The notes beneath the pieces are model-generated. The model did no database searches. It saw only the letters and a program-made list of their open reading frames with translations, and was not told where the DNA came from. From Patiria pectinifera (lineage: Eukaryota > Echinodermata > Asteroidea > Valvatida > Asterinidae), in contig CM057150.1 in assembly GCA_029964075.1 (NCBI GenBank), positions 1,736,001-1,800,000 of the forward strand: a DNA stretch of 64,000 nt, written 5' to 3'. This document shows positions 4,030 to 60,613 of this stretch, piece by piece (position 1 is the first letter of the stretch; the number at the start of each line of letters is the position of its first letter). The translations under genes were made by a program, and so were the position numbers.

Positions 4030-5469
4030 GTAGAAAACAAATAATCAAACTTAATGTTTGTACATATTCCATTAAAATACACAAATATTCCGTCAGTGAT
4101 TAATTGGCGAAAACATTGTGCGGTCGCTAGAGCGGATCAATATTACATGACCGTTTACAATCATGGTTTTAAACAAATTTATATATAAACGAGGATTCGC
4201 TTTATTCGCTTTGCTGACTTCACTGCCTATCGGCTGCTTCGCGGTCGAGCAACTCGTGAACATACACATATACACCATTTCTTCTTCATAGTATAGCGTT
4301 GATAACTAGCATTGTGCCAGTGATTATATCCAGTTAAGTCATTAATGCAGCATGATTGTTTGATATAATCAATAGAAGTCCTTACTAACAAATACATGTG
4401 AGTTCAAGACGTGATGTCATTTAGGATGAAAGTGCAAGTGGTGTTTACAATGGAAGGTTTGTGATAACAAGTAATTGTAGCGCAATGCATTTAATAGAGG
4501 GCGCACTTTAAATCTTTACTGGTAGCCATCGGGGTGCGCGTGCACTCACCCGGGTTTAAAGGGGCACCCAGGTTATAAGCGGCCGCGCGCTCAGCTTCAC
4601 TGTCTTTCTGCTGTGGCCGTGACCCGAGCGCGGTCTCGTGTGAAGAGTTCTCGCACTGCTCTAATCTCGCGCAATCAACAAATCACCAATCATCTACAGT
4701 TGCAGTGGAGGGAGCCTCACACATTGAGTGAGTGTAATGGACAAATGATTCCTGTATCATTATCCAGATAATTAGGTAATCTCTGAGTTTATAAGGGAAG
4801 TGATTTAGTATACGATTACGTAGGCGAGGCACCTATTAAGGACAAGGGTTTGCGCAAACCAGTGTCCAGTGCCGAATTCCTCCCCCGAAATATCCCCTGT
4901 CTGTCAGCCCAGTGAGTGGAGTGAGTGCGTGATAGGGTGTTGTTTTTGGTAGTCTACTTCGGGCCTGCCCGGCCTGGCAGGAAATCTCCGCCGAAACGGA
5001 TCTGCGTACCCGACCGTTCAGGCTAGCCTGTTCGCCTCTACTCGTTGGGGCAGTCGTCCGAAGCAGTACCACTAGATAATTTTAAATTTTTAATTCTAAA
5101 AAAATTAAATTGGCCTTTTTAACGTCTGCTTCAGCCTACATGTACATGTGTGGGTGGATGGTCTAGTTTTACTTCGGGTGTAAAGTCTCTATAATGCAGC
5201 AACTCGCAACAAAGCATAAATATATTTATAAATAAATAAATATAACATAATATATATCATGCAATAAATTCAGAATATGAGCTAATCAATCTTTGGCATA
5301 TCTCTCTTCTGGACAGACTTATTTCGAATCAAGCGCGCGCTTGCGTTACGCGATTTATGTCATTGAAGTTAGTACGCGTTTACGTCACTGAAGTAAGAAC
5401 ACACCCGTATCGATGCCTGCACTTGGAGACGATTTCGCTTCTCTTATTTAGTGTACTTAGATCTAGCCT
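4030..5469. other. First part of intron 2, unassigned
   Basis: No exon is supported. From about 4530 to 5090 the DNA is GC-rich. It has a TATA-like word (GGTTATAAG near 4570) followed by a GC-rich tract, which could be a retroelement promoter or LTR remnant, but no matching second copy was found in the window. An AT-rich stretch follows at 5090-5300. Confidence 0.4.
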
Positions 5470-6783
5470 ACATATGATTATGTACTTCTATGCCATACAC
5501 AAATTGCATCTCTTGTTTACGTTAGAGTAGGGCAGTGCTTTCTGAACAATGTCCCATTTGATTTCATAGTCTTTCCCCTCGTCCTTTAAATCCCATGTTT
5601 ACTTAGCTCTGTTTGCGCCCTTTTGTCTTGGATCTGAATGACTACTTGTGGTTCGCCAGTCTCACCTTGAAGGTTGTGGATGTCAGCCCGACGTATGCCT
5701 CCTTCCTGCCTTCGCTCGTGACGGTGGCTTGGTACACGATGTTCTTGCTGAGGCACTCCCCGTTCAGCGGGCATTCGGCATTGCGGGGGCAACTACATGT
5801 TCTACCTCCGACGTCGTCCTCTTGTTTTACCTTCCGTTTGTTGATTGGCTGGATCGTTGCCTTCATGTTCGGCATGCAGCTGTGCGATAACTTGACTGTC
5901 TTCCGGTTGAGCACTTTGTGAAGCTTATGTTCCTTGGGGAAGCATTTGTCTATTATCTGAAGGAATTTCTTTCCAATGTTGGTACGTACGTTCTTGTTGT
6001 ATGGCGGGTTGTAACATGTCACCTCCCTTTTTCTAGTCCTTTTCCTTGTGTTATTGCCCGGTGTGTATGTCAACCGATACTTGTGCCCGCTTTTTTGCAG
6101 AGACTCTTGGTAGGCAGGGGCCGCTTTCTCGAATGCCTCCTTGGACGACGAGATGCTGGAGAGACGCTTGTTGATTCCCTCTGGTATCTGTTTGATGACG
6201 GCGGGTGGATGGTTTGACTGGACATGTACATAGAGATGTACATTACCTGGTTTCATGTATGGCTTGTACCCTCCCGTTCGCAGGTCTAATGTGACGTCAA
6301 GGAAGTTGACTGTTGCCTTGTTGGCTTCGATCGTTACCTTTAAGTCATTTTCCCGGACTACTTAGCATATTTCCTTTTTAATGTTTTCTATTTTCTGCGG
6401 GGGGTCTCTCTGAATACTGCCAGACCGTCGTCCCTGTATAGTCCCACTCTATTTCCGTACTTTGGTTTCAGGATCGACAACATATATGCTACAACCAGCT
6501 CGCATGACTCCGCGCCGTCGAAACTGGCCACCGTGACATCGAATTTGCCGTCTGCGTTAAGCTTTTGCCACGCTACCTGGTCGTTGAATACTACTGTCTT
6601 CTTCGCGTGGATGATGATATCTTTCTCCTTATTGCTAATGTTCTCGTAGTTTTTCGCGAACCCTAGGGCCACCAGGACAAGCTTTTCCGTTATCGAGGGG
6701 TAAACCTCCACAATGTCGAAATTTATGAAGCCCGATTCTTGCTTGTTTGGGATTTCCTTATACCAGTCCAGTGTGGCGTCAGA
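5470..6783 (-). pseudogene. Penelope-like retroelement: reverse transcriptase and GIY-YIG endonuclease
   Basis: Read on the minus strand from 6783, the sequence gives part of a Penelope-type reverse transcriptase. It includes a palm block with VEVYPSITEKL (about 6675-6710), a later catalytic block with GLYRDDGLAVF (about 6410-6445), then NFLDVTLDL and a YVHV...NHPP region. The C-terminal domain has a cysteine cluster of the CxC...CPL form and a GIY-YIG-like core with YVGLTSTTF (about 5650-5690). A frameshift near 6390, a stop near 6350 and another stop near 5640 break the frame. The N-terminal part of the reverse transcriptase is missing. The element lies in intron 2 of the Ig gene, antisense to it. 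Confidence 0.82.
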
Positions 6784-8866: not shown

Positions 8867-9475
8867 ATGGCGACCGGTGGAACACCAAAGACTGTTGATC
8901 AACCAGACATGCCAGAGGATAAGCCAGAAATTGGAACTTTTCCTCCAAGCTTCCAACCTTTTAGCCAGCAGATCCCCTCATTTGGTTTGCGCAAGTTGAG
9001 GCACAATTCCACACAAGGAGGACACTAACTTTGCCCACGTTTTGTTGGCGGTACAATCTGAGATAATTCAAGTCTGTGACTTGTTGATCACTCCTCCAAA
9101 GGACAACCAGTATCAAAAGCTCAAGGAAGAAATTATCCGACGAACGTCTGCCTCTGAACTAAACTGACTGCAGATTCTGCTCACCGAAGAAGAGTTGGGG
9201 GACACAAAAAGCCTTCGCAGTTATTGCGTCGCATGCGACAACTGCTCGGTGAACGTAAACTAGAGGAAGGCATTTTTGCGCATCTCTTTTTGCAACGGCT
9301 CCCATCAGCTCATCCTCGCTTCTGCCAGGGACACAGTTCCTCTGTACCAGCTTGCTTCACTTGCCGATCGCGTCCTCGATGTTTAAATCCCTCCAGTCAA
9401 CGCCTTCCTTGTCTGGGGAACTTGCTGAGCTGCATGACCAGATCTCGAAATTCACCATGGAAGTGAGCTCCATGC
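8867..9475 (+). pseudogene. Gypsy gag fragment, copy 1
   Basis: The start [18 protein letters not shown] is at 8867. It is followed, with frameshifts, by a typical Ty3/gypsy gag body: [13 protein letters not shown], then PPKDNxYQKLKEE, an RTSASEL block, LLRRMRQLLGE, and LASLADRVLDV near 9350-9380. Gag forms the retrotransposon particle. The coding part ends at about 9475, where sequence switches abruptly to the antisense LINE, so protease and pol are absent. It is a close relative of the copy at 16.46 kb. Confidence 0.72.
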
Positions 9476-9995
9476 ATGCTGATGACCACACCTTTTCCAT
9501 TCTGTGGAGCACTGACCACGCCTGTCCTCTTCAGGTCTTGAGGTCTTTCTCACTGGAGATGATCCAAGCTCCAAGGCACTTAGGTCAGCTTCAATTTTGA
9601 GAGTTGTACCATCTTTCATGCAGGCAGCCGTGTCAACGATGTTATAGGCGAGCACCTCGGTCTTTTGAGAGCAGTCTTTTGAAAACATTTTCTTTTTAGA
9701 CCAGTGCAGTGCGATGTCATCGGCAAAGTCCATGTCAGTTTTCATCACACGAGACACTCGTTCGCCGGCTCTTGCGGGGCACTATGGTGAAACCTAGCTC
9801 CTCTTCTCTACTATTGGTGACCTTCTTCAGGGCGTAGGCGTAGTCAAATACAATGATGAAGAGCATGGGGGTCAATATGTCACCCTGAATTTCCCTATCA
9901 GCATGTCAAAGATATTTCAAAGACACCACCCGTTGAAGTGACCCTGGCCCGGGTGTTTGCGTACGTCGCCCCAATGATTTGCACTAACTTATATA
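9476..9995 (-). pseudogene. Non-LTR reverse transcriptase, catalytic region
   Basis: The minus strand carries the reverse transcriptase palm. A GDILTPMLFIIVFDYA-like block lies at about 9850-9900, then the catalytic FADDIAL motif at about 9705-9735, followed by a TEVLAYNI and MKDGTTLKI region. Upstream, an ATYANTRARV block lies near 9950-9985. A frameshift separates the first blocks. The preceding portion of the same enzyme seems to lie at 12505-13765, so this LINE was probably split by a later insertion of about 2.5 kb. Confidence 0.72.
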
Positions 9996-16458: not shown

Positions 16459-17330
16459 ATGGCGACCGGTGGAACACCAAAGACTGTTGATCAACCAGAC
16501 ATGCCAGAGGATAAGCCACAGATTGGAACTCTATCCTTCAAGCTTCCAACCTTTTGGCCAGCAGATCCCCTCATTTGGTTTGCGCAAGTTGAGGCACAAT
16601 TCCAAACAAGGAGGACACTAACTTTGCCCACGTTTTGTTGGCGGTACAATCTAAGATAATTCAAGTCTGCGACTTGTTGATCACTCCTCCAAAGGACAAC
16701 CCGTATCAAAAGCTCAAGGAAAAAATGATCCGAAGAACGTCTGCCTCTGAACTAAAATGACTGCAGATTCTGCTCACCGAAGAAGAGTTGGGGGACACAA
16801 AAGCCTTCGCAGTTATTGCGTCGCATGCGACAACTGCTCGGTGAACGTAAACTAGAGGAAGGCATTTTCGCGCAACTCTTTTTGCAACGGCTCCCATCAG
16901 CTCATCCTCGCTTCTTCTAGGGACACAGTTCCTCTGCACCAGCTTGCTTCACTTGCCGATCGCGTCCTCGATGTTTACATCCCTCCAGAAAACGCCTTCC
17001 TCGTCTGGGGAACTTGCTGAGCTGCATGACCAGATCTCGAAATTCACCATGCAAGTGAGCTTCATGCAGTTGCAACTCAAACGACAGTCTCGCGCCCGTA
17101 GCCAGAGTCGCCCGCGCCAACGCAGTGCCAGCCGTTACCGTGCATCTTCATCTCCTGACACACCGACCACACAAACACTATGTTGGTACCATCGCCGTTT
17201 CGGTGCTGAGGTTCAGGTGTGCGTACAGCCTTGCTCCTACACCACTCAGCAGGAAAACGAACCCACCAGGGGATTGGCGCGGCACTTCCACCTAGTACCC
17301 AACCTGGCCGTCCGTTCTTCATCAATGACT
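16459..17330 (+). pseudogene. Gypsy gag, copy 2
   Basis: The reading starts [18 protein letters not shown] at 16459, runs through [19 protein letters not shown] and [16 protein letters not shown] residues, then needs frameshifts to continue through PPKDNPYQKL, the RTSASEL block, LLRRMRQLLGE, LPSAHPR and LASLADRVLDVYIPPE (about 16950-16990). The next part (17090-17160) is arginine/serine-rich, and a degenerate cysteine/histidine region may be the nucleocapsid. At least three frameshifts or stops make it non-functional. Confidence 0.72.
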
Positions 17331-32659: not shown

Positions 32660-33970
32660 AACATCGAAATGTACGGAGCTTTTAAAGGGACATAGGTGAA
32701 AAAAAAAATTGAAAATTTCATCGTAACAATGAAAAATATCTTCGTTCGAACGAAAAAAATCTGCGTTCGAACGAAAAAAATCTGCGTTCGAATGAAAAAA
32801 ATCTTCGTTCGAACGAAAAAAAATCTGCGTTCGAAAGAAAAAATCTGCGTTCGAACGAAAAAAATCTGCGTTCGAACGAAAAAAATCTGCGTACTTGGGC
32901 TGCCGGCCGGAGACACAGACGCCATTGTTGACGATGTGGTTAATTTAAAATTTAATTCCAAGAATTGGTTATATTTTACACCAAAGGTGTCGTCATATAT
33001 AGATAACGGGAAAAAAAATCAAGAGTAACACTGTTTGTGTCATATTTAACACTCCGTGTTTGGCAGTGTGGAATGTACATACAGAATGTAGTATTTAGTT
33101 TGGTGCTGGATCGAAATGAAAGAAACAAATATGGGATAAGATTTAAAAAAATGGTTCTCATTAGGATTGAAACCCAGGACTCTTTGCAAGGGCCGTCACA
33201 GCCTGCACTATGAAATTAGGAAAAAATCTGTGGTAGTCCCCCTGGTCAGTGTTTTAACTGTGACAGAACTGATTGAGTGCCCCCCCCCCCAAGAAAAACA
33301 GGCCCCCCAAGTGCCCCCGCAAATTATACCCCAATTATGAAACTGGTCTTGGTTTGGAATCCCGATGATGAACAGGTGCTTTTCTCTCCCATGTTGAGTT
33401 CGATAGTGATTTGGCACCACAATATTTCTGGCCTTTCCTGCAAAATAGGGTCCTGAAAGGGTCCTGTTATTACACAAGTGTTAAAACCTTTAGCCAAACC
33501 ACGAGTACTTTAAAGTAAACAGCAATGTCAATTTGCAAAAGCTTTAGGCTTTAAAATAAATACCAATTACAAACTCACAAAAAAGTCACAGAAAACCAAT
33601 GATTTAATTTCATGTTTATAAGACCGCTTTTCTTTATTTGCGAGTCTGTAAGGCTCATGCATAAAGAAAGCCCAAACAAACACGGCTTAAGCCATAAGTA
33701 GATATACATGTACTTAATTGTTCAAAACATCTTTCGGGAAAACAACGAAAAGTTTTTTTCGTTCGAACGAAGATTTTTTTCGTTCGAACGCAGATTTTTT
33801 TCGTTCGAACGCAGATTTTTTTTCGTTCGAACGAAGATTTTTTTCATTCGAACGCAGATTTTTTTCGTTCGAACGCAGATTTTTTTCGTTCGAACGAAGA
33901 TTTTTTTCATGCTTACGATGATTTTTTCAATTTTTTTTTTCACCTATGTCCCATTAAAAGCTCCGTAGAA
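32660..33970. mobile_element. Foldback element with 21-bp TTCGAA subrepeats
   Basis: The left arm (32660-32895) and the right arm (33755-33970) are inverted copies. Each has an outer flank (GGAGCTTTTAAAGGGACATAGGTG and complement) and an inner array of a 21-bp unit containing CGTTCGAACG plus a run of A or T and ATCTGC/ATCTTC. About seven units lie in each arm. The inner 850 bp have no coding region. This architecture resembles Foldback/Galileo-type elements, whose long inverted repeats are built from subrepeats. The repetitive peptides (RTQIFFV and RTKKICV types) in all frames are by-products of the repeat. Confidence 0.72.
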
Positions 33971-34278
33971 ATGAAATAACAGAAAATAATTTATAAATGA
34001 GCAACAATAAAAACACGTTCGTTCGAACGCAGATTTTTTTCGTTCGAACGCAGATTTTTTTCGTTCGAACGCAGATTTTTTTCGTTCGAACGAAGATTTT
34101 TTTCATTCGAACGCAGATTTTTTTCGTTCGAACGCAGATTTTTTTCGTTCGAACGAAGATTTTTTTCATTCTTACGATGATTTTTTCAATTTTTTTTTTC
34201 ACCTATGTCCCTTTAAAAGCTCCGTAGAAATGAAATAACAGAAAATAATTTATAAATGAGCAACAATAAAAACACGAA
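33971..34278. repeat. Tandem copy of the foldback right arm
   Basis: The right arm and its outer flank (33756-34016) are repeated once more in direct orientation at 34017-34277, including the GAGCAACAATAAAAACACG end word. The two copies differ by few bases, suggesting a recent duplication of about 261 bp. Confidence 0.75.
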
Positions 34279-42023: not shown

Positions 42024-42641
42024 TTAAAAGATTTCTAACTCGATAATGATACCCGCACCCTTATTGTTGAATACCTGTCCTTTTTCACCGCTGATTGAAA
42101 ATGTCAGTTTGTCGATTATACCGTGTTTAAGTTTTTTAAAACCCTCGACCCTATCAGGCTCAGGTTCGCGCGTACCCACGGGTACGATTTTTAAAATGTC
42201 AGAAGGACGACAATTAAAAAGGTTTTCACTCGTACTTAATTGCGGGCAGCGAATAAACAAAAATTTAAACGGATTAACGTCGTAAGACCCCGTATACACC
42301 ACTTTGGGTACCAGTCTTCCTTTGGGTGAATTGAGTAATCGAGATACTTCTCTGTTCAAGCGCAATTTGAGATTTACGTCGGTTATCACCAACGTCACCT
42401 TTTTAGATTCTCTAAATATTCGAAAACTTACCCCAGGTATAGAATTTAAAATGCAGTCGAACCAATCGACGTCGTACCACCCTGGTGGTATGATGACCGA
42501 ACCGATACTTCCGAGTGGTAACGACTCTAAATGACTCGGAGGAATAAAATCTAAATCATCACCCGTCACGATAAGACTTCCTTTTATAATCACCCCTGCT
42601 TCTCTACCATCTCTCAACTCAGTCAACTCGCTCGTACCCAT
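42024..42641 (-). CDS. Polinton-associated protein, possibly structural (205 residues)
   Basis: An uninterrupted frame from ATG at 42641 to 42024 encodes MGTSELTELRDGREAG and onward. It is rich in predicted beta-strand segments with hydrophobic/proline turns (SIGSVIIPPGWYDVDWF, KFLFIRCPQLST, LTFSISGEKG) and ends LEIF. The C-terminal half (PQLSTSENLFNCRPSDIL...) looks like a beta-rich capsid or penton-like fold, but I cannot confirm it. It is one of few Polinton genes here without a frameshift. Its neighbours are other minus-strand small genes. Confidence 0.55.
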   Translation of the reverse strand: MGTSELTELRDGREAGVIIKGSLIVTGDDLDFIPPSHLESLPLGSIGSVIIPPGWYDVDWFDCILNSIPGVSFRIFRESKKVTLVITDVNLKLRLNREVSRLLNSPKGRLVPKVVYTGSYDVNPFKFLFIRCPQLSTSENLFNCRPSDILKIVPVGTREPEPDRVEGFKKLKHGIIDKLTFSISGEKGQVFNNKGAGIIIELEIF

Positions 42642-42718
42642 TTCTCCTTCATTAAACTATAAAGCCAGTTCCTCATCTTCAAAGATTTTTCTTTCTCTAA
42701 CAAATAATATTCTTCTAC

Positions 42719-42845
42719 AAATTAAAGTGGCCTGACGTTGCGAACTTAGCAAGTTCTTCTTCAGAGGCTAAAACAGAAATCAGATTTCTGTTTTAGCCTC
42801 TGAAGAAGAACTTGCTAAGTTCGCAACGTCAGGCCACATTAATTT
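42719..42845. repeat. Near-perfect palindrome with hammerhead-like motifs
   Basis: Arms of more than 50 bp meet at a single-base loop at 42782, with one mismatch near the base of the stem. On the plus strand, 42796-42834 has the order expected for a type I hammerhead: stem I GCCT/AGGC, core CTGAAGA (42800-42806), stem II GAACTT/AAGTTC with loop GCT, then GCAAC and GTC. The complement carries the same order on the minus strand. The A13 position is C rather than A, so activity is doubtful. Confidence 0.8.
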
Positions 42846-42947
42846 TTAGATTTATACATTTCAGGTCCATCCAGTCAGTAAGCAGTTTGCAGCAGTCTTA
42901 CTTTTTTTCAAATAATATTCTTATTAAAGATTGAAGCGTATTAGGTT

Positions 42948-43390
42948 CTAATTCAGTATTGGTATTTCTGAAAACATGGCGGCTAAAATCAACTCTCGCC
43001 GTTCAGCTATGAGAGCTCTTTTTCTTTTGTTTGATTCTAGTCTATCGTCTTCGCACGCTTTTATATGATCGTTTGTATTTTTTTGTAAAACATATTCGTC
43101 GTTAAATAAATAGTCGTAGGGTATATCGGGTAACAGTCGCTCTATAAAATCTCTATCCGGCGTTCTGATGTACATCTGAAAGAAACTCCGCGGGTATGGG
43201 TGGAGGTTTATCTGTGGTAAACGCGGGTCTCCCGTCTATTTGCGTAAACCAGTCGATCTCCGTGGCGCTTGAAATATTTAGCGTTAAACAACACCCTTTT
43301 TACGCGTACAGATTTTTGACCGTTTAGATTATCTACGATGTCTTCTAATTTAAACGTCTGCTCATTTTGAAACAACTGAAACGAATGCAT
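42948..43390 (-). pseudogene. Unrecognised Polinton-region protein, one frameshift
   Basis: Two minus-strand open parts appear to form one gene: 43390-43208 (MHSFQLFQNEQTFKLEDIV...) and 43175-42948 (IRTPDRDFIERLLPDIPYDY..., then a lysine/arginine-rich helix KRKRALIAERREL). The frame shifts near 43190. It diverges from the plus-strand gene starting at 43432, with 41 bp between them. No family is recognised. Confidence 0.42.
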
Positions 43391-44853: not shown

Positions 44854-46062
<1,209 letters not shown>

Positions 46063-55978: not shown

Positions 55979-56645
55979 TCATCTCCCCTCAAAAGTGGTG
56001 TCTCCGTCGTCAAGTCTATCGGCAACGCAACCTCCAGTCCGAGCATACGCATATTCAGGGTCTCTCCTGTGGACTCCTGAGGAACTGACCAATAGGCAAA
56101 TGTAGCAAACTGTTCGTCCCAGTCCCTCTGGCCTCGGCTCGTCAAGCATCATTGACACTGTGGTTATCAGAGTACGGTTAAATCTCTCGATTAACCCATC
56201 GGATTTTGGGTTATACGCCACTGTCAGGGTCTTTCTTATCCCAAGGATCTTGCACATTTCCGAAAAGATAGCAGACTCAAAGTTACGCCCCTGGTCGGAG
56301 TGCAACTCCCGAGGTACTCCATACCGGCATACAAAGTTTGTCACAAAAGCTTTAGCCACGGTGGGAGCATGGACATCGGGGAGGGCATAGGCCTCCATCA
56401 ATTTGGAGAAATAATCTCCAACGACAAGCACCCACCTGTTACCCTCTGTTGACACTGGTAGCGGTCCAACAAGATCAAGGGCCACTCTGTCCATGTCATT
56501 GCTCTTACGTCTGCTGCCATACTACACCAGTAAAACCGGGCCTTCAGCCTAGCTAGTGTACGGCTTACACCGAAATGGCCTCCGCTTTTTCCTCCATGTA
56601 ATTCCTCTAGTATCGCCTCACGAAATTCGAAGGGTAGGATCACTT
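55979..56645 (-). pseudogene. Gypsy integrase
   Basis: The zinc-binding start is only partly present: LHGGKSGGHFGVSRTLARLK (about 56560-56620) holds the HH pair, but the CxxC part seems deleted near 56510. The catalytic core has ALDLVGPLP (first Asp, about 56470), SDQGRNFES (second Asp, about 56270) and DGLIERFNRT (Glu, about 56180). A frameshift near 56140 leads to a damaged C-terminal part. It would integrate the retrotransposon cDNA. Confidence 0.82.
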
Positions 56646-56659
56646 GCCATTTAATTTCC

Positions 56660-58470
56660 TGACCATCATTGGATTCCCAACGCCTACTCAGTACTCTCCA
56701 GTTGGTCCCATTTTGACCAGTAGACCTTAGCTGTTCCTGCTCTTGAGGAAACCTCGCTCCAATCCGGGCGACAACCAGACTCCTCTTTTGCCTCTATTAC
56801 CCAACTGATCGTTGGATCCCTCAATTGGCCCTCACGCAATTCTCCCATGGTAATTTGAGGCTCCAATTCGGTCATTCTTGTTGTCACATGCTCAGATGCC
56901 TCAACCTCTTTATGCGGGAGGCATTTCTCCAGTCCACTGTCAGTTATTGAACCCTCGGCTCTCACTCCCTCGGTCGTATCCTTCTCGTCCAATACGGGGT
57001 TCTGAGGTTCCTCATCCGAGCGTCCGCATTGTTTGTACGGCTGGCGGGAGAGAGCGTCGGCATTGCCGTGTCTCTTTCCAGGTCTGTGAACAATCTCATA
57101 GTTATACTCCCCAAGACCTCCAACCAGCGAGCTACTTGGCCCTCAGGATTCTTAAAGGTAACTAGCCAGCGGAGCGCCGCACGATCCGTCCGAATCAATA
57201 TCCGCCGCCCATATAGGTACTTCTTGTAGTCTTTCAGGTACACAATGATCGCCAGCAGCTCTCTCCTAGTTACGCAATAGTTCCTCTCAGCTCTATTGAG
57301 CGTCCGGCTGCCGTACGCGATAACACGCTCTTGTCCTTCCTGTACTTGCGAAAGTACAGCTCCTATTCCGATGCCGCTCGCATCGGTGTCCAATACGAAT
57401 TGCCCCTCTTGCTCAGGGTACGCCAGAATGGGTGCCTTCTGTAGGTGTTGCTTTAATGTCTCAAAGGCATTTTGGCAGTCATCACACCAGACGAATAGTC
57501 GCGCCTTCTCCGTAAGCTTGTGCAGTGGACGGGCTATATCCGCGAATCCCTTGATGAACCTTCTATAGTATGAGGCTAACCCCAAAAAGCTCCTCACACG
57601 TCTGACATCCGTCTTCCATGATTTGACTGCCTCCACCTTCTCAGGGTCCGTAGATATCCCATTGGAGGAAACAACATGTCCCAGATATTTCACTTCCCGC
57701 CTGAAGAGATGGCATTTCTTAGGTTTCAGTTTGAGCCTCGCCGCACGGAATCTTTGCAGAAGCTCCCGCAACCGACTAATCTCCTCCTGTACAGTTTTAT
57801 CATTGACAATTACATCGTCCAGATACACCAGTAATGTTTCCCACTGTAGGCCTGATGCTACCCTCTCCATTAGCCTCTCAAATGTGGCGGGGGCATTGCA
57901 CAGACCGAAGGGCATAACCCCCCAGCTGTACAATCCCCCGCGCACAACGAAGGCAGACTTGCGTTTTGCGTCCTCATCTAGCTCCACCTGCCAGTACCCA
58001 GCGGCCAAATCAAGCGTGGAGAACCATCTGGCCCCGGCAAGTGCGTCCAACGTGTCATCGATCCTGGGTACTGGATAGGCATCTTTCACGGTCTCGGCAT
58101 TTAGCCTCCTATAGTCCACGCAGAAGCGTCGTGTACCGTATTTCTTTCGCACTAAGACCACATTCGATGCCCAGGGGCTATCTGATGGCTGAATGATGCC
58201 TCTTGCAAGCATATCGCTTACTTGGTTGTCAATTTCTTTTTGATGGCAGGCCGGCTGACGCCTCGACCTCTCCCTAATAGGGTGGGCGTTGCCTGTATCG
58301 ATACTGTGTTTTACCAATCCTGTCCTCCCGATATCATCGTCACCTATAGAAAATACGTCAGCATAATCGATAAGTAGCTGAGCAATGGCGGCGTGATGAC
58401 TCGGCTCCATCTCCTCAGTCGCCCAAGTAAACAAATCCTGGAGGTGGGCCGGAACTTTAACGTCTTTCTG
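56660..58470 (-). pseudogene. Gypsy reverse transcriptase and RNase H
   Basis: The minus-strand frame from about 58470 to 56962 is open for 490 residues. It shows DMLARGIIQPSDSPWASNVV, FCVDYRRLNAETV, FSTLDLAAGYWQVEL, FGLCNAPATFERLM and the catalytic YLDD (57814-57825). The connection follows, then RNase H with LDTDASGIGIGAVLSQ (about 57385-57415), RRELLAIIVYLKDYKKYL and LIRTDRAALRWL. The family tail goes on in a broken frame to about 56660. It is the best-preserved domain of the element. Its N-terminus directly abuts the 2.1-kb insertion at 58479. Confidence 0.92.
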
Positions 58471-58478
58471 AGCGCCTC

Positions 58479-60613
58479 TGTCACACTACCTCTTAGAGGT
58501 TTTCTACGGACATTATTTTAGAGGGAACTGAACACGCTAAGTACATGGGGACACAGACAAATAAAAACACGGTTAACTCAATCTTGGGTTCTCAAACTTA
58601 TTCACTTAAACTGTCTCTTATTCACTATCAAAATTTACCAATTCCAAAACTATGATATGAAATTACACTCAAATAATCGAACGGAAATTTGGGCCCAGAC
58701 AAGTTTTAAAATCTCAAGTATTCGTCTCCAAATTTACAATTTCAAAGTTATAAAATGGACGTCACAATTAGAAAGAGGATTTTACATGAGCTGCACTAAA
58801 ATTATTTGAGCTTCTAAAATTCAGTAATTAATGCATTCAGAAATCTAATCAGTAAAATAGCTCACGATATCTAGATGAGTTGTACCCGTAATTCAATCAT
58901 TCAATTCCACAAAATGGCATATTCCAATCTAGGTTGATCACTTAAGTCAAATGTATCAATCAATTCCATCAAATCTATCAATTCTTCAAATTTTTCAATT
59001 CTCAAATCTTCACCTCTTAATTATTCTCTAATTTTCAATATCTGCACTTTCCTTCAAATTTCGACTGAGAATCTTTAACTCAAACACTCCTTGTTTGACA
59101 CTTAGTGTTTTATCACCGCAATTAATTCTAATAACCTTAATTCTCAACTTGTAACAATTCACAACTTCAAATCACCAATTAACCCGTGAAGTTTCAAACT
59201 TTCAATTCTTAAACTTCAATCACAAAATCTTTGTTCAATCACAAAATTTCTCAATTCGTTTCTTAGATTCACTTATTAATCACCGTATCTTCAATTTGAC
59301 CTCAAAATTCACAAATCGTAATTCACTTCAAGTTTATCAATTTTCTCTTCTGTTTAAGTTGAAACCTTTCTGTTTCTATCACAATTTACACTTTCGATAA
59401 CACTTCTTTAATTTTTGTTCAAACACTTCTTCCAATTTTGGTTCAAACACTTCTTCAATTTTGGTTCAAACACTTCTTCAATTTTGGTTCAAACACTTCT
59501 TCAATTTTGGTTCAAACACTTCTTCAATTTTGGTTCAAACACTTCTTCAATTTTGGTTCAAACACTTCTTCAATTTTAGGTCAACCTTCTTTTCTTTCTG
59601 TACTAATCTCAAGTCATTTAGATTACCAATACCACATCAAATATTATCTTCGGGAAAATTGAATAATTATTAATCCTTCTTTCAATCTTGTTGATTTAAA
59701 ATATTTACATTCTCACATTCAAAATCCAAATCAAGTTTATGTTATTATGCCAGTTATTTTATACAATCATAAAGGTGACTGCCGCCAGGTCCTTGTCAGC
59801 CTGCCAACTGTCTATGCAGCATCACTCAGATTTCGGTCCAAGGGGTCCGGTAGAGGTAGGGGTCCTGGACAAGAGCTTCAGTTCCTCAGGGTAGTGCGAG
59901 GCTCACTGTACTCGGTAGAAACATCTCCCCATTCTTTGTGCCATCTGAGATTACGAATTTTACAAGCCAAAATCCCACTAAGATTCCGCACCATTTTTAG
60001 CAAGTAAAGAATTCAATCTCAGATTTTACAATTAAATCAATTTCACTTCTAATTAATACAAGAAATAAAGTGGGCAAAGAAAATAATTTAAACTTACAGT
60101 TAGCATCTTCGAAACTCTCTCAGAGTTGCATACAATGTCAGCTTTTTTATGCAGACCACATAATTGCAATGAAGATGTGGTTGTTGGCTGTTCAGGCTAA
60201 AGCTGACAATAAATCAGACTAGCTGTATGACTAGCTGTATGACTAGCTTCAGGACAAAATAGGTCCTCTCTCACGTGTGTCTGGCGAGCAAGTGCCTGCA
60301 GCAGCTTAGCATAGGCAAAACCCCAAGCCGCTCCCATGCAAGGAATTTTGGAAGGCATTTGGCAAATGTTCGTACTCTACTAATCACTCATACTGCTAAC
60401 TATGGCACACACGGGTAACAAAGCACTTTCCTTGGCACACCCACATACCATGAATAGCTTATTCAACAATACTGAATATTCATCACTGGAACTTACAACC
60501 TATCACTGAATCCACACACACATACATATACAAACACTCAAAACCACTCAACCAAATAAATCAGTTCAATGAATAAATGAAACTAAGGAAAATATACACA
60601 GTCACTTGTGACA
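58479..60613. mobile_element. 2.1-kb insertion between protease and reverse transcriptase
   Basis: It starts TGTCACAC and ends CTTGTGACA, so it has TG...CA ends and a short inverted terminal match. The flanks GCCTC (58474-58478) and GCCTT (60614-60618) look like a 5-bp target duplication with one change. The interior is AT-rich, with a minisatellite and no gene. A solo LTR or a non-autonomous element are both possible. Removing it on paper makes the pol frame continuous at this point. Confidence 0.6.
59417..59585. repeat. 23-bp tandem repeat, about 7 copies
   Basis: The unit ACACTTCTTCAATTTTGGTTCAA recurs with almost no change inside the 2.1-kb insertion. Confidence 0.92.

Follow-up and report, generated by a model that had tools for sequence, protein, structure and literature searches.

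Inverted pLTRs, a tail on one side only and palindromic junctions are already known for Penelope-like elements (PMC3846280, in its available parts), and hammerhead ribozymes have been described in these elements in the available parts of four further sources (PMC11167929, PMC6155905, PMC7761336, PMC7229834). For one of them, PAc (Poseidon of Anolis), the available text of PMC11167929 reports that in vitro the two target strands are both cut and extended by the Penelope protein, and that reverse transcription (RT) starts at two neighbouring sites in agreement with the genomic tail, with the same use of start sites on the top and bottom strands.

We describe here a palindromic insertion in a 64,000-nucleotide stretch of Patiria pectinifera DNA (the window, meaning the whole stretch that was analysed) and its copies in the genome. 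The family resembles EN+ Penelope-like elements such as Pen2a_Av in its inverted 5′ pLTR, its tail on one pLTR end, its short duplication and its palindromic inverted junction. It differs from the elements in the available parts of PMC3846280 in that many copies lack any internal part, which leaves a palindromic match of 106–142 bp, in its duplications (mostly 11–15 bp versus 8–10) and in its tail (63 nt versus 31 bp). PAc likewise has two internal RT start sites, which delimit its tail, and a hammerhead that lies immediately upstream of the RT start, and its both-strand extension in vitro resembles the reading that we propose below; in contrast to what the available text says of PAc (PMC11167929), in the palindromes here the inner start site lies at one end of an insertion and the outer site at the other, and the hammerhead has C at A13.

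The insertion is thus of a known kind, but it records how Penelope elements insert. In L1 twin priming, a second priming yields an inverted segment; here, however, the inverted segment repeats the same RNA 3′ end and not an upstream part. Penelope elements, Terminons and animal retrozymes carry minimal type I hammerheads, a group treated in the available parts of PMC7761336 and PMC7229834. Such hammerheads have a CTGANGA strand, a short stem II and no stem III loop. The motif in our arms is like them, but it has one unpaired base before stem II in addition to the C at A13, and, unlike in animal retrozymes, no tandem retrozyme repeat was found around it.

A palindromic insertion in a Polinton gene

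The palindrome at 42719–42845 is real. It is odd-centred at 42782, with 55 perfect pairs, then one mismatch (42726/42838) and then seven further pairs, which bears out the description in the initial annotation of a palindrome of about 127 bp with a one-base loop and a single mismatch. The limits given there were exact, but the feature is larger, reaching from 42701 to 42922 when both duplications are included. The RNA fold of 42713–42914 has −114.8 kcal/mol, against −36.9 ± 4.0 in 200 shuffles (z −19.7), none of which equalled it, and a 36-nt motif is found exactly in both arms, where none would be expected. The whole insertion measures 194 bp (42715–42908), the palindrome being its greater part, and is bounded on both sides by a 14-bp direct repeat, CAAATAATATTCTT. 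The features are as follows:

42024–42656, minus strand: Polinton gene, downstream part, split by the insert (relative P0001, 93% identical over 88%)
42701–42714, no strand: target-site duplication, left copy CAAATAATATTCTT, single in 10/10 fetched paralogs
42715–42780, minus strand: inverted arm, a tail-less end of a Penelope-like element, whose start is close to the inner RT start site
42730–42768, minus strand: hammerhead-derived motif (very probably) of the inverted arm, with stem I of 4 bp, CTGAAGA, extra A, stem II of 6 bp, GCAACGTC
42781–42783, no strand: junction bases CAG, 3 nt, explained by neither arm
42784–42845, plus strand: direct arm, element end
42796–42834, plus strand: motif of the direct arm, very probably hammerhead-derived, with its predicted cleavage site following 42830 (GTC/AGG)
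42846–42908, plus strand: element tail, reaching from the inner to the outer RT start site, with T7 at its end
42909–42922, no strand: target-site duplication, right copy CAAATAATATTCTT
42948–43235, minus strand: the same Polinton gene, upstream part (frame open over the site in 5/5 translated paralogs)

The state of the site without the insertion was seen in Polinton paralogs, obtained by a search of the same genome with the left flank (best 40 of 478 candidates scored, 10 fetched). All ten contain the target once and no insert, and a hairpin specific to the Polinton itself is thereby ruled out. The two parts on either side had been taken for two decayed genes; they are instead one gene cut by the insert, because the frame runs open across the empty site in the five translated paralogs.

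The Polinton family appears to be abundant, with the 478 first-look candidates and 39 other scored places that are 94–95% identical to 42480–42712 of the window. A TA repeat of 103 units (45733–45938) lies within reading frames of the Polinton region. Elsewhere in the window, 21-bp tandem repeats on TTCGAACG (32731–32892 and 33753–34186) stand in opposite orientation and flank about 0.9 kb; a sequence of about 0.54 kb occurs twice in direct orientation (8941–9476 and 16534–17068; 96% identical, 7.6 kb apart); and frames on the minus strand at 55979–58485 resemble Ty3-type retrotransposon genes, integrase and reverse transcriptase, a name that comes from reading the translation.

The parent element and its head-to-head copies

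The palindrome was used as a query against the window's own genome (613.5 Mb). Among the best 40 of 989 candidates scored, the window copy is 100% identical and the others are 85–96% identical, nearly all of them matched in both directions. The 39 other places were fetched and compared with the window copy (n = 40), and target-site duplications were detected automatically in 32/40 copies, compared to 4/190 mismatched pairings; in several of the eight copies that failed this test, a duplication is visible by eye beyond a short repeat, rich in T, with which the tail ends. A MITE with a TTAA duplication would have suited the window by itself, but was dropped in view of the longer duplications and the one-sided tail of the copies. 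More generally, where a palindromic MITE has a duplication of fixed length and a palindrome inherited as a unit, the duplications, apices and arms vary here and the parent is a retroelement. MicroRNA precursors were also rejected, as the many Rfam miRNA families that match do so weakly and below their cut-offs, as long hairpins may, and exact scans of viral contigs gave no match.

The parent was reached with the tail alone, leaving the palindrome unused (best 40 of 876 candidates scored; 37 copies fetched, together with the window, L020 and L042). The direct arm continues past 132 nt in 26 of the 37 fetched tail copies and ends at 109–132 in the other 11. An upstream ORF of one of these loci, L044, matches RVT_1 above the cut-off (E 1e-7, 32.3 bits) and GIY-YIG (PF01541) just below it (E 1.5e-4, 22.4 bits, cut-off 22.6); a GIY-YIG domain is also annotated for relatives, e.g., P0005 and P0007, and, of the named relatives, those of sea urchins, a sea star, a sea cucumber and a brittle star are nearest. 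To judge from these domain matches, the parent is a multicopy Penelope-like element with a reverse transcriptase and GIY-YIG. The window insert derives from this Penelope-like element, with which it has the tail and arm in common, and to this are added the 14-bp duplication and the ten empty sites. A hairpin-headed SINE was dropped once the tail search had yielded non-palindromic parents. A second, divergent Penelope-like fragment lies on the minus strand at 5621–6349 of the window (tblastn with relatives of the first element, best E 4e-13, about 23–34% identity in the matches listed).

Both pLTR arrangements are present, tandem in L081 and inverted in L082. In the latter, two 3.2-kb arms, 99.2% identical, stand head to head with a tail on one side only and a 12-base duplication seen by eye. 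A head-to-head inverted arm was found in at least 16/40 tail copies (13/37 fetched, plus the window, L020 and L042), a lower bound, as the fetched sequence of some other tail copies is too short to tell. The proposal of a head-to-head insertion of two retroelement ends, made from the window alone, is therefore upheld by the copies, the Penelope-like parent and the layout of L082. The shortest of these arms measures about 58 nt and the longest 3.3 kb. When coordinates are counted back from the tail end and limits are set by BLAST, the direct/inverted limits include 127/117, 1016/745, 111/127, 164/1628, 444/413, 1133/99, 1962/691 and 987/1912, and in L082 3261/3331. The inverted arm is far longer than the direct one in L060 and L073, and longer by 114 nt in L082. 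Among 42 mini-palindromes (the 40 copies of the palindrome search, L052 and L056), the inverted arm is the longer in 14 and the direct arm in 18, while the two are equal in 10.

The hammerhead-like motif of the arms

A descriptor scan, with a descriptor composed after the motif was seen, finds the order of a hammerhead on the plus strand (42796–42834) and on the minus strand (42730–42768), provided that one core change is tolerated along with an additional unpaired A (42807) after A9 and before stem II. The CUGANGA strand and stems I and II of a type I hammerhead are present; the extra A keeps A9 from standing directly before stem II, and instead of GAA with A13, the motif reads GCAA. The initial annotation was thus right about the order on both strands and about the C at A13, but had left out the unpaired A that this order needs. 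A stands at position 13 in 0/159 arm readings, from copies chosen for high identity, and the core is identical in 137/159, a count biased by the choice of copies by similarity and by a few overlapping loci. One copy of the same family, L134, has GAAACGTC, i.e., A at core position 13.

The genome pattern CTGANGAN{10,24}GAAACGTC, derived from the motif as initially annotated, has 455 matches, compared to 63 for the reversed control. Stem II reaches at least 4 bp in 47 of the 83 distinct strings among the matches listed, and the register in these 47 is offset by one base in 45, canonical in 1 and offset by two bases in 1; a first pass on 39 strings had given the one-base offset in 21/22. With these matches and this recurring offset, the earlier assignment to the minimal hammerheads without a stem III loop proves right in kind. 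In random sequence, the class with an extra base and one core change gave 65 matches in 148.4 Mb (0.028 per 64 kb), and all four scored classes together 151 matches in 148.4 Mb (about 3e-5 per 65-nt strand).

A genome search with Rfam Hammerhead_1 (best 73 of 76,780 candidates scored) gave one match, the type I hammerhead of L087 (37.8 bits). The window holds a remnant of the sequence around this ribozyme on the minus strand at 5247–5319 (L087 1533–1598, 82% identical over 73 columns); the match starts inside the ribozyme, whose 5′ half was not seen in the window. Three short head-to-head pairs with other arm sequences were picked for closely spaced opposed pattern matches; L135 and L136 have good hammerhead-like motifs and L137 has a poor stem II. 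A partial literature survey gave nothing relevant on Penelope hammerheads in echinoderms.

The two motifs might be working back-to-back hammerhead ribozymes that process the element RNA in dimeric form. Their minimal layout, the excess of pattern matches over the reversed control and the common register would fit such a function, and hammerheads with a weak stem III can act as dimers according to the available parts of PMC6155905, PMC7761336 and PMC7229834. However, besides the C at A13, the covariance search with Rfam, the check that had been suggested with the original description, found no hammerhead in the window at E up to 10, nor in five further copies; the predicted cleavage site is the start of 0/40 tail-bearing copies; the palindrome folds as a single hairpin; and hammerhead mutants of PAc leave insertion unaffected (PMC11167929, available parts). 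We therefore find working ribozymes unsupported and, as far as sequence can tell, unlikely, and the motif in the window arms probably does not cleave. A chance likeness to a hammerhead, or an assembly artefact, would explain why the canonical core is departed from twice and why no covariance model matches, and the 455 pattern matches were counted genome-wide, whatever their element context. Against chance stand the rate of about 3e-5 per arm strand, the recurrence of the one-base offset and of the ACGTC end across the genome, and the position of the motif 82 nt from the outer RT start, near the 85–92 nt that we derived for PAc from the available text of PMC11167929; an artefact at one place does not fit the many copies and empty sites. 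Both appear highly improbable to us, whereas we consider it very probable that the motif goes back to a hammerhead of the Penelope type.

Two start sites and a proposed route to a palindrome

The starts of the arms were read from a tail-independent search (40 places at 100% identity of 957 candidates; 36 fetched, giving 37 arms). They are bimodal, with 26 at an inner site, 10 at an outer site about 60 nt away and 1 elsewhere, which resembles an outer start with an internal deletion; when the other four of the 40 places, which also belong to the tail sample and hence bear the tail, are added, the counts are 26, 14 and 1. In the palindromes found without the tail query, the tail is on one side in 39/40, on both sides in 1 (L027) and on neither side in 0. 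The inner site is the commoner, yet it is used at both ends in 0/40 palindromes, whereas about 40% would be inner/inner if the ends were independent. Hence, we take the two target strands to use the two start sites complementarily, an arrangement at the two ends of one insertion of which a partial literature survey gave no account. Among the inverted arms with a visible start, 8/11 start at 52–65; the others start at 41 (L064), 77 (L073) and 0 (L080).

At the other end of the arms, direct limits cluster at 122–132 in 12/40 tail copies, mostly 9–16 nt past stem I of the motif, and a stop there would account for the abundance of tiny palindromes. The mini-palindrome junctions (n = 42) show 0–2 nt of overlap in 18 and 1–22 extra nt in 24, the window having 3 extra. 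Since simulated blunt joins give the same overlaps of 0–2 nt, these alone are no sign of microhomology. The apex was encountered only once in 30/42. The common flanks within each of the pairs L015/L017 and L021/L039 mark duplicates of one insertion, and the palindrome centres differ within each pair. Apices are thus also able to change once an insertion is in place, so that the arm-length counts carry less weight for the mini-palindromes, though the long-arm cases are unaffected.

The best explanation, to which we give a probability of about 0.8, is a both-strand, target-primed insertion of a Penelope-like element into the Polinton gene. The retroelement would enter the gene by target-primed reverse transcription, with both nicked target strands acting as primers. 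One cDNA would start at the outer RT start site and keep the 63-nt tail, and the other, on the opposite strand, would start at the inner site and have no tail. Both would copy the element RNA toward its 5′ side and stop about 129 nt from the element 3′ end, 15 nt past stem I of the hammerhead-like motif; the two cDNA ends would then be joined into an inverted pair, and the staggered nicks would give rise to the 14-bp duplication. What the element is, its duplication and empty site, the head-to-head layout of many copies, the two main start sites and the unequal lengths of the arms are observed; priming by both strands, the sequence of events and the union of the cDNA ends are our inference from them, in line with the extension of both strands by the PAc protein in vitro. 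The low divergence between the arms, for which the initial annotation considered gene conversion among other causes, gives no support to gene conversion and is best read as the copying of both arms from one element RNA at insertion, with most apices being single. Against both-strand priming, as far as the available text of each source goes, the genomic palindromes have one start site of each kind, unlike the strands in vitro in PMC11167929, and head-to-head palindromes are interpreted as self-priming in PMC3846280; the three inverted-arm starts outside 52–65 also count against it.

Such self-priming, in which a single tail-primed cDNA folds back on its own 3′ end and copies itself, would readily give the short loops, the near-perfect arms and the extra or repeated bases at apices, and the same substitution is mirrored in both arms in 14 cells, against 31 with a substitution in one arm only. 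Under self-priming the inverted arm should not exceed the direct one in length, contrary to L060, L073 and L082 and to 14/42 mini-palindromes, though apices can change later, and on its own it leaves the clustering of inverted-arm starts near one inner site unexplained. The change of apices slightly lowers our probability for both-strand priming (from 0.82 to 0.80) and slightly raises that of fold-back synthesis, which we still consider improbable as the general route; the equal arm limits (10/42) and the extra apex bases (24/42) are also compatible with some fold-back synthesis. If the hairpin had already been in the source RNA, as in a hairpin-headed SINE or a palindromic MITE, the palindromes would be inherited, which would suit their number and likeness and the two mirrored variants common to several copies. 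The direct arm, however, enters Penelope sequence past 132 nt in most fetched tail copies, most apices were seen once, head-to-head arms reach kilobases and non-palindromic parents exist, so that an inherited hairpin is hardly credible.

Returning to both-strand priming, a more general form of it can be put forward only tentatively, and we would not yet bet on it. Penelope insertion may be inherently two-ended, with the outer start on one nicked strand and the inner start on the opposite one, so that each new insertion would at first consist of a head-to-head pair. From this the palindromes, the inverted pLTR and the tail would follow as one consequence, and the adjacent upstream hammerhead motif would be an RT stop or structural element and not a ribozyme.

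In summary, this genome apparently holds hundreds of copies (876–989 first-look candidates for each query, of which 40 were scored), and their junctions keep a record of where both cDNAs start and stop. Opposite start sites at the two ends would link the both-strand extension seen in vitro to the long-standing question of why the pLTR is inverted and the tail optional, and the copies examined show a route to short, near-perfect palindromes with paired hammerhead motifs in one insertion.
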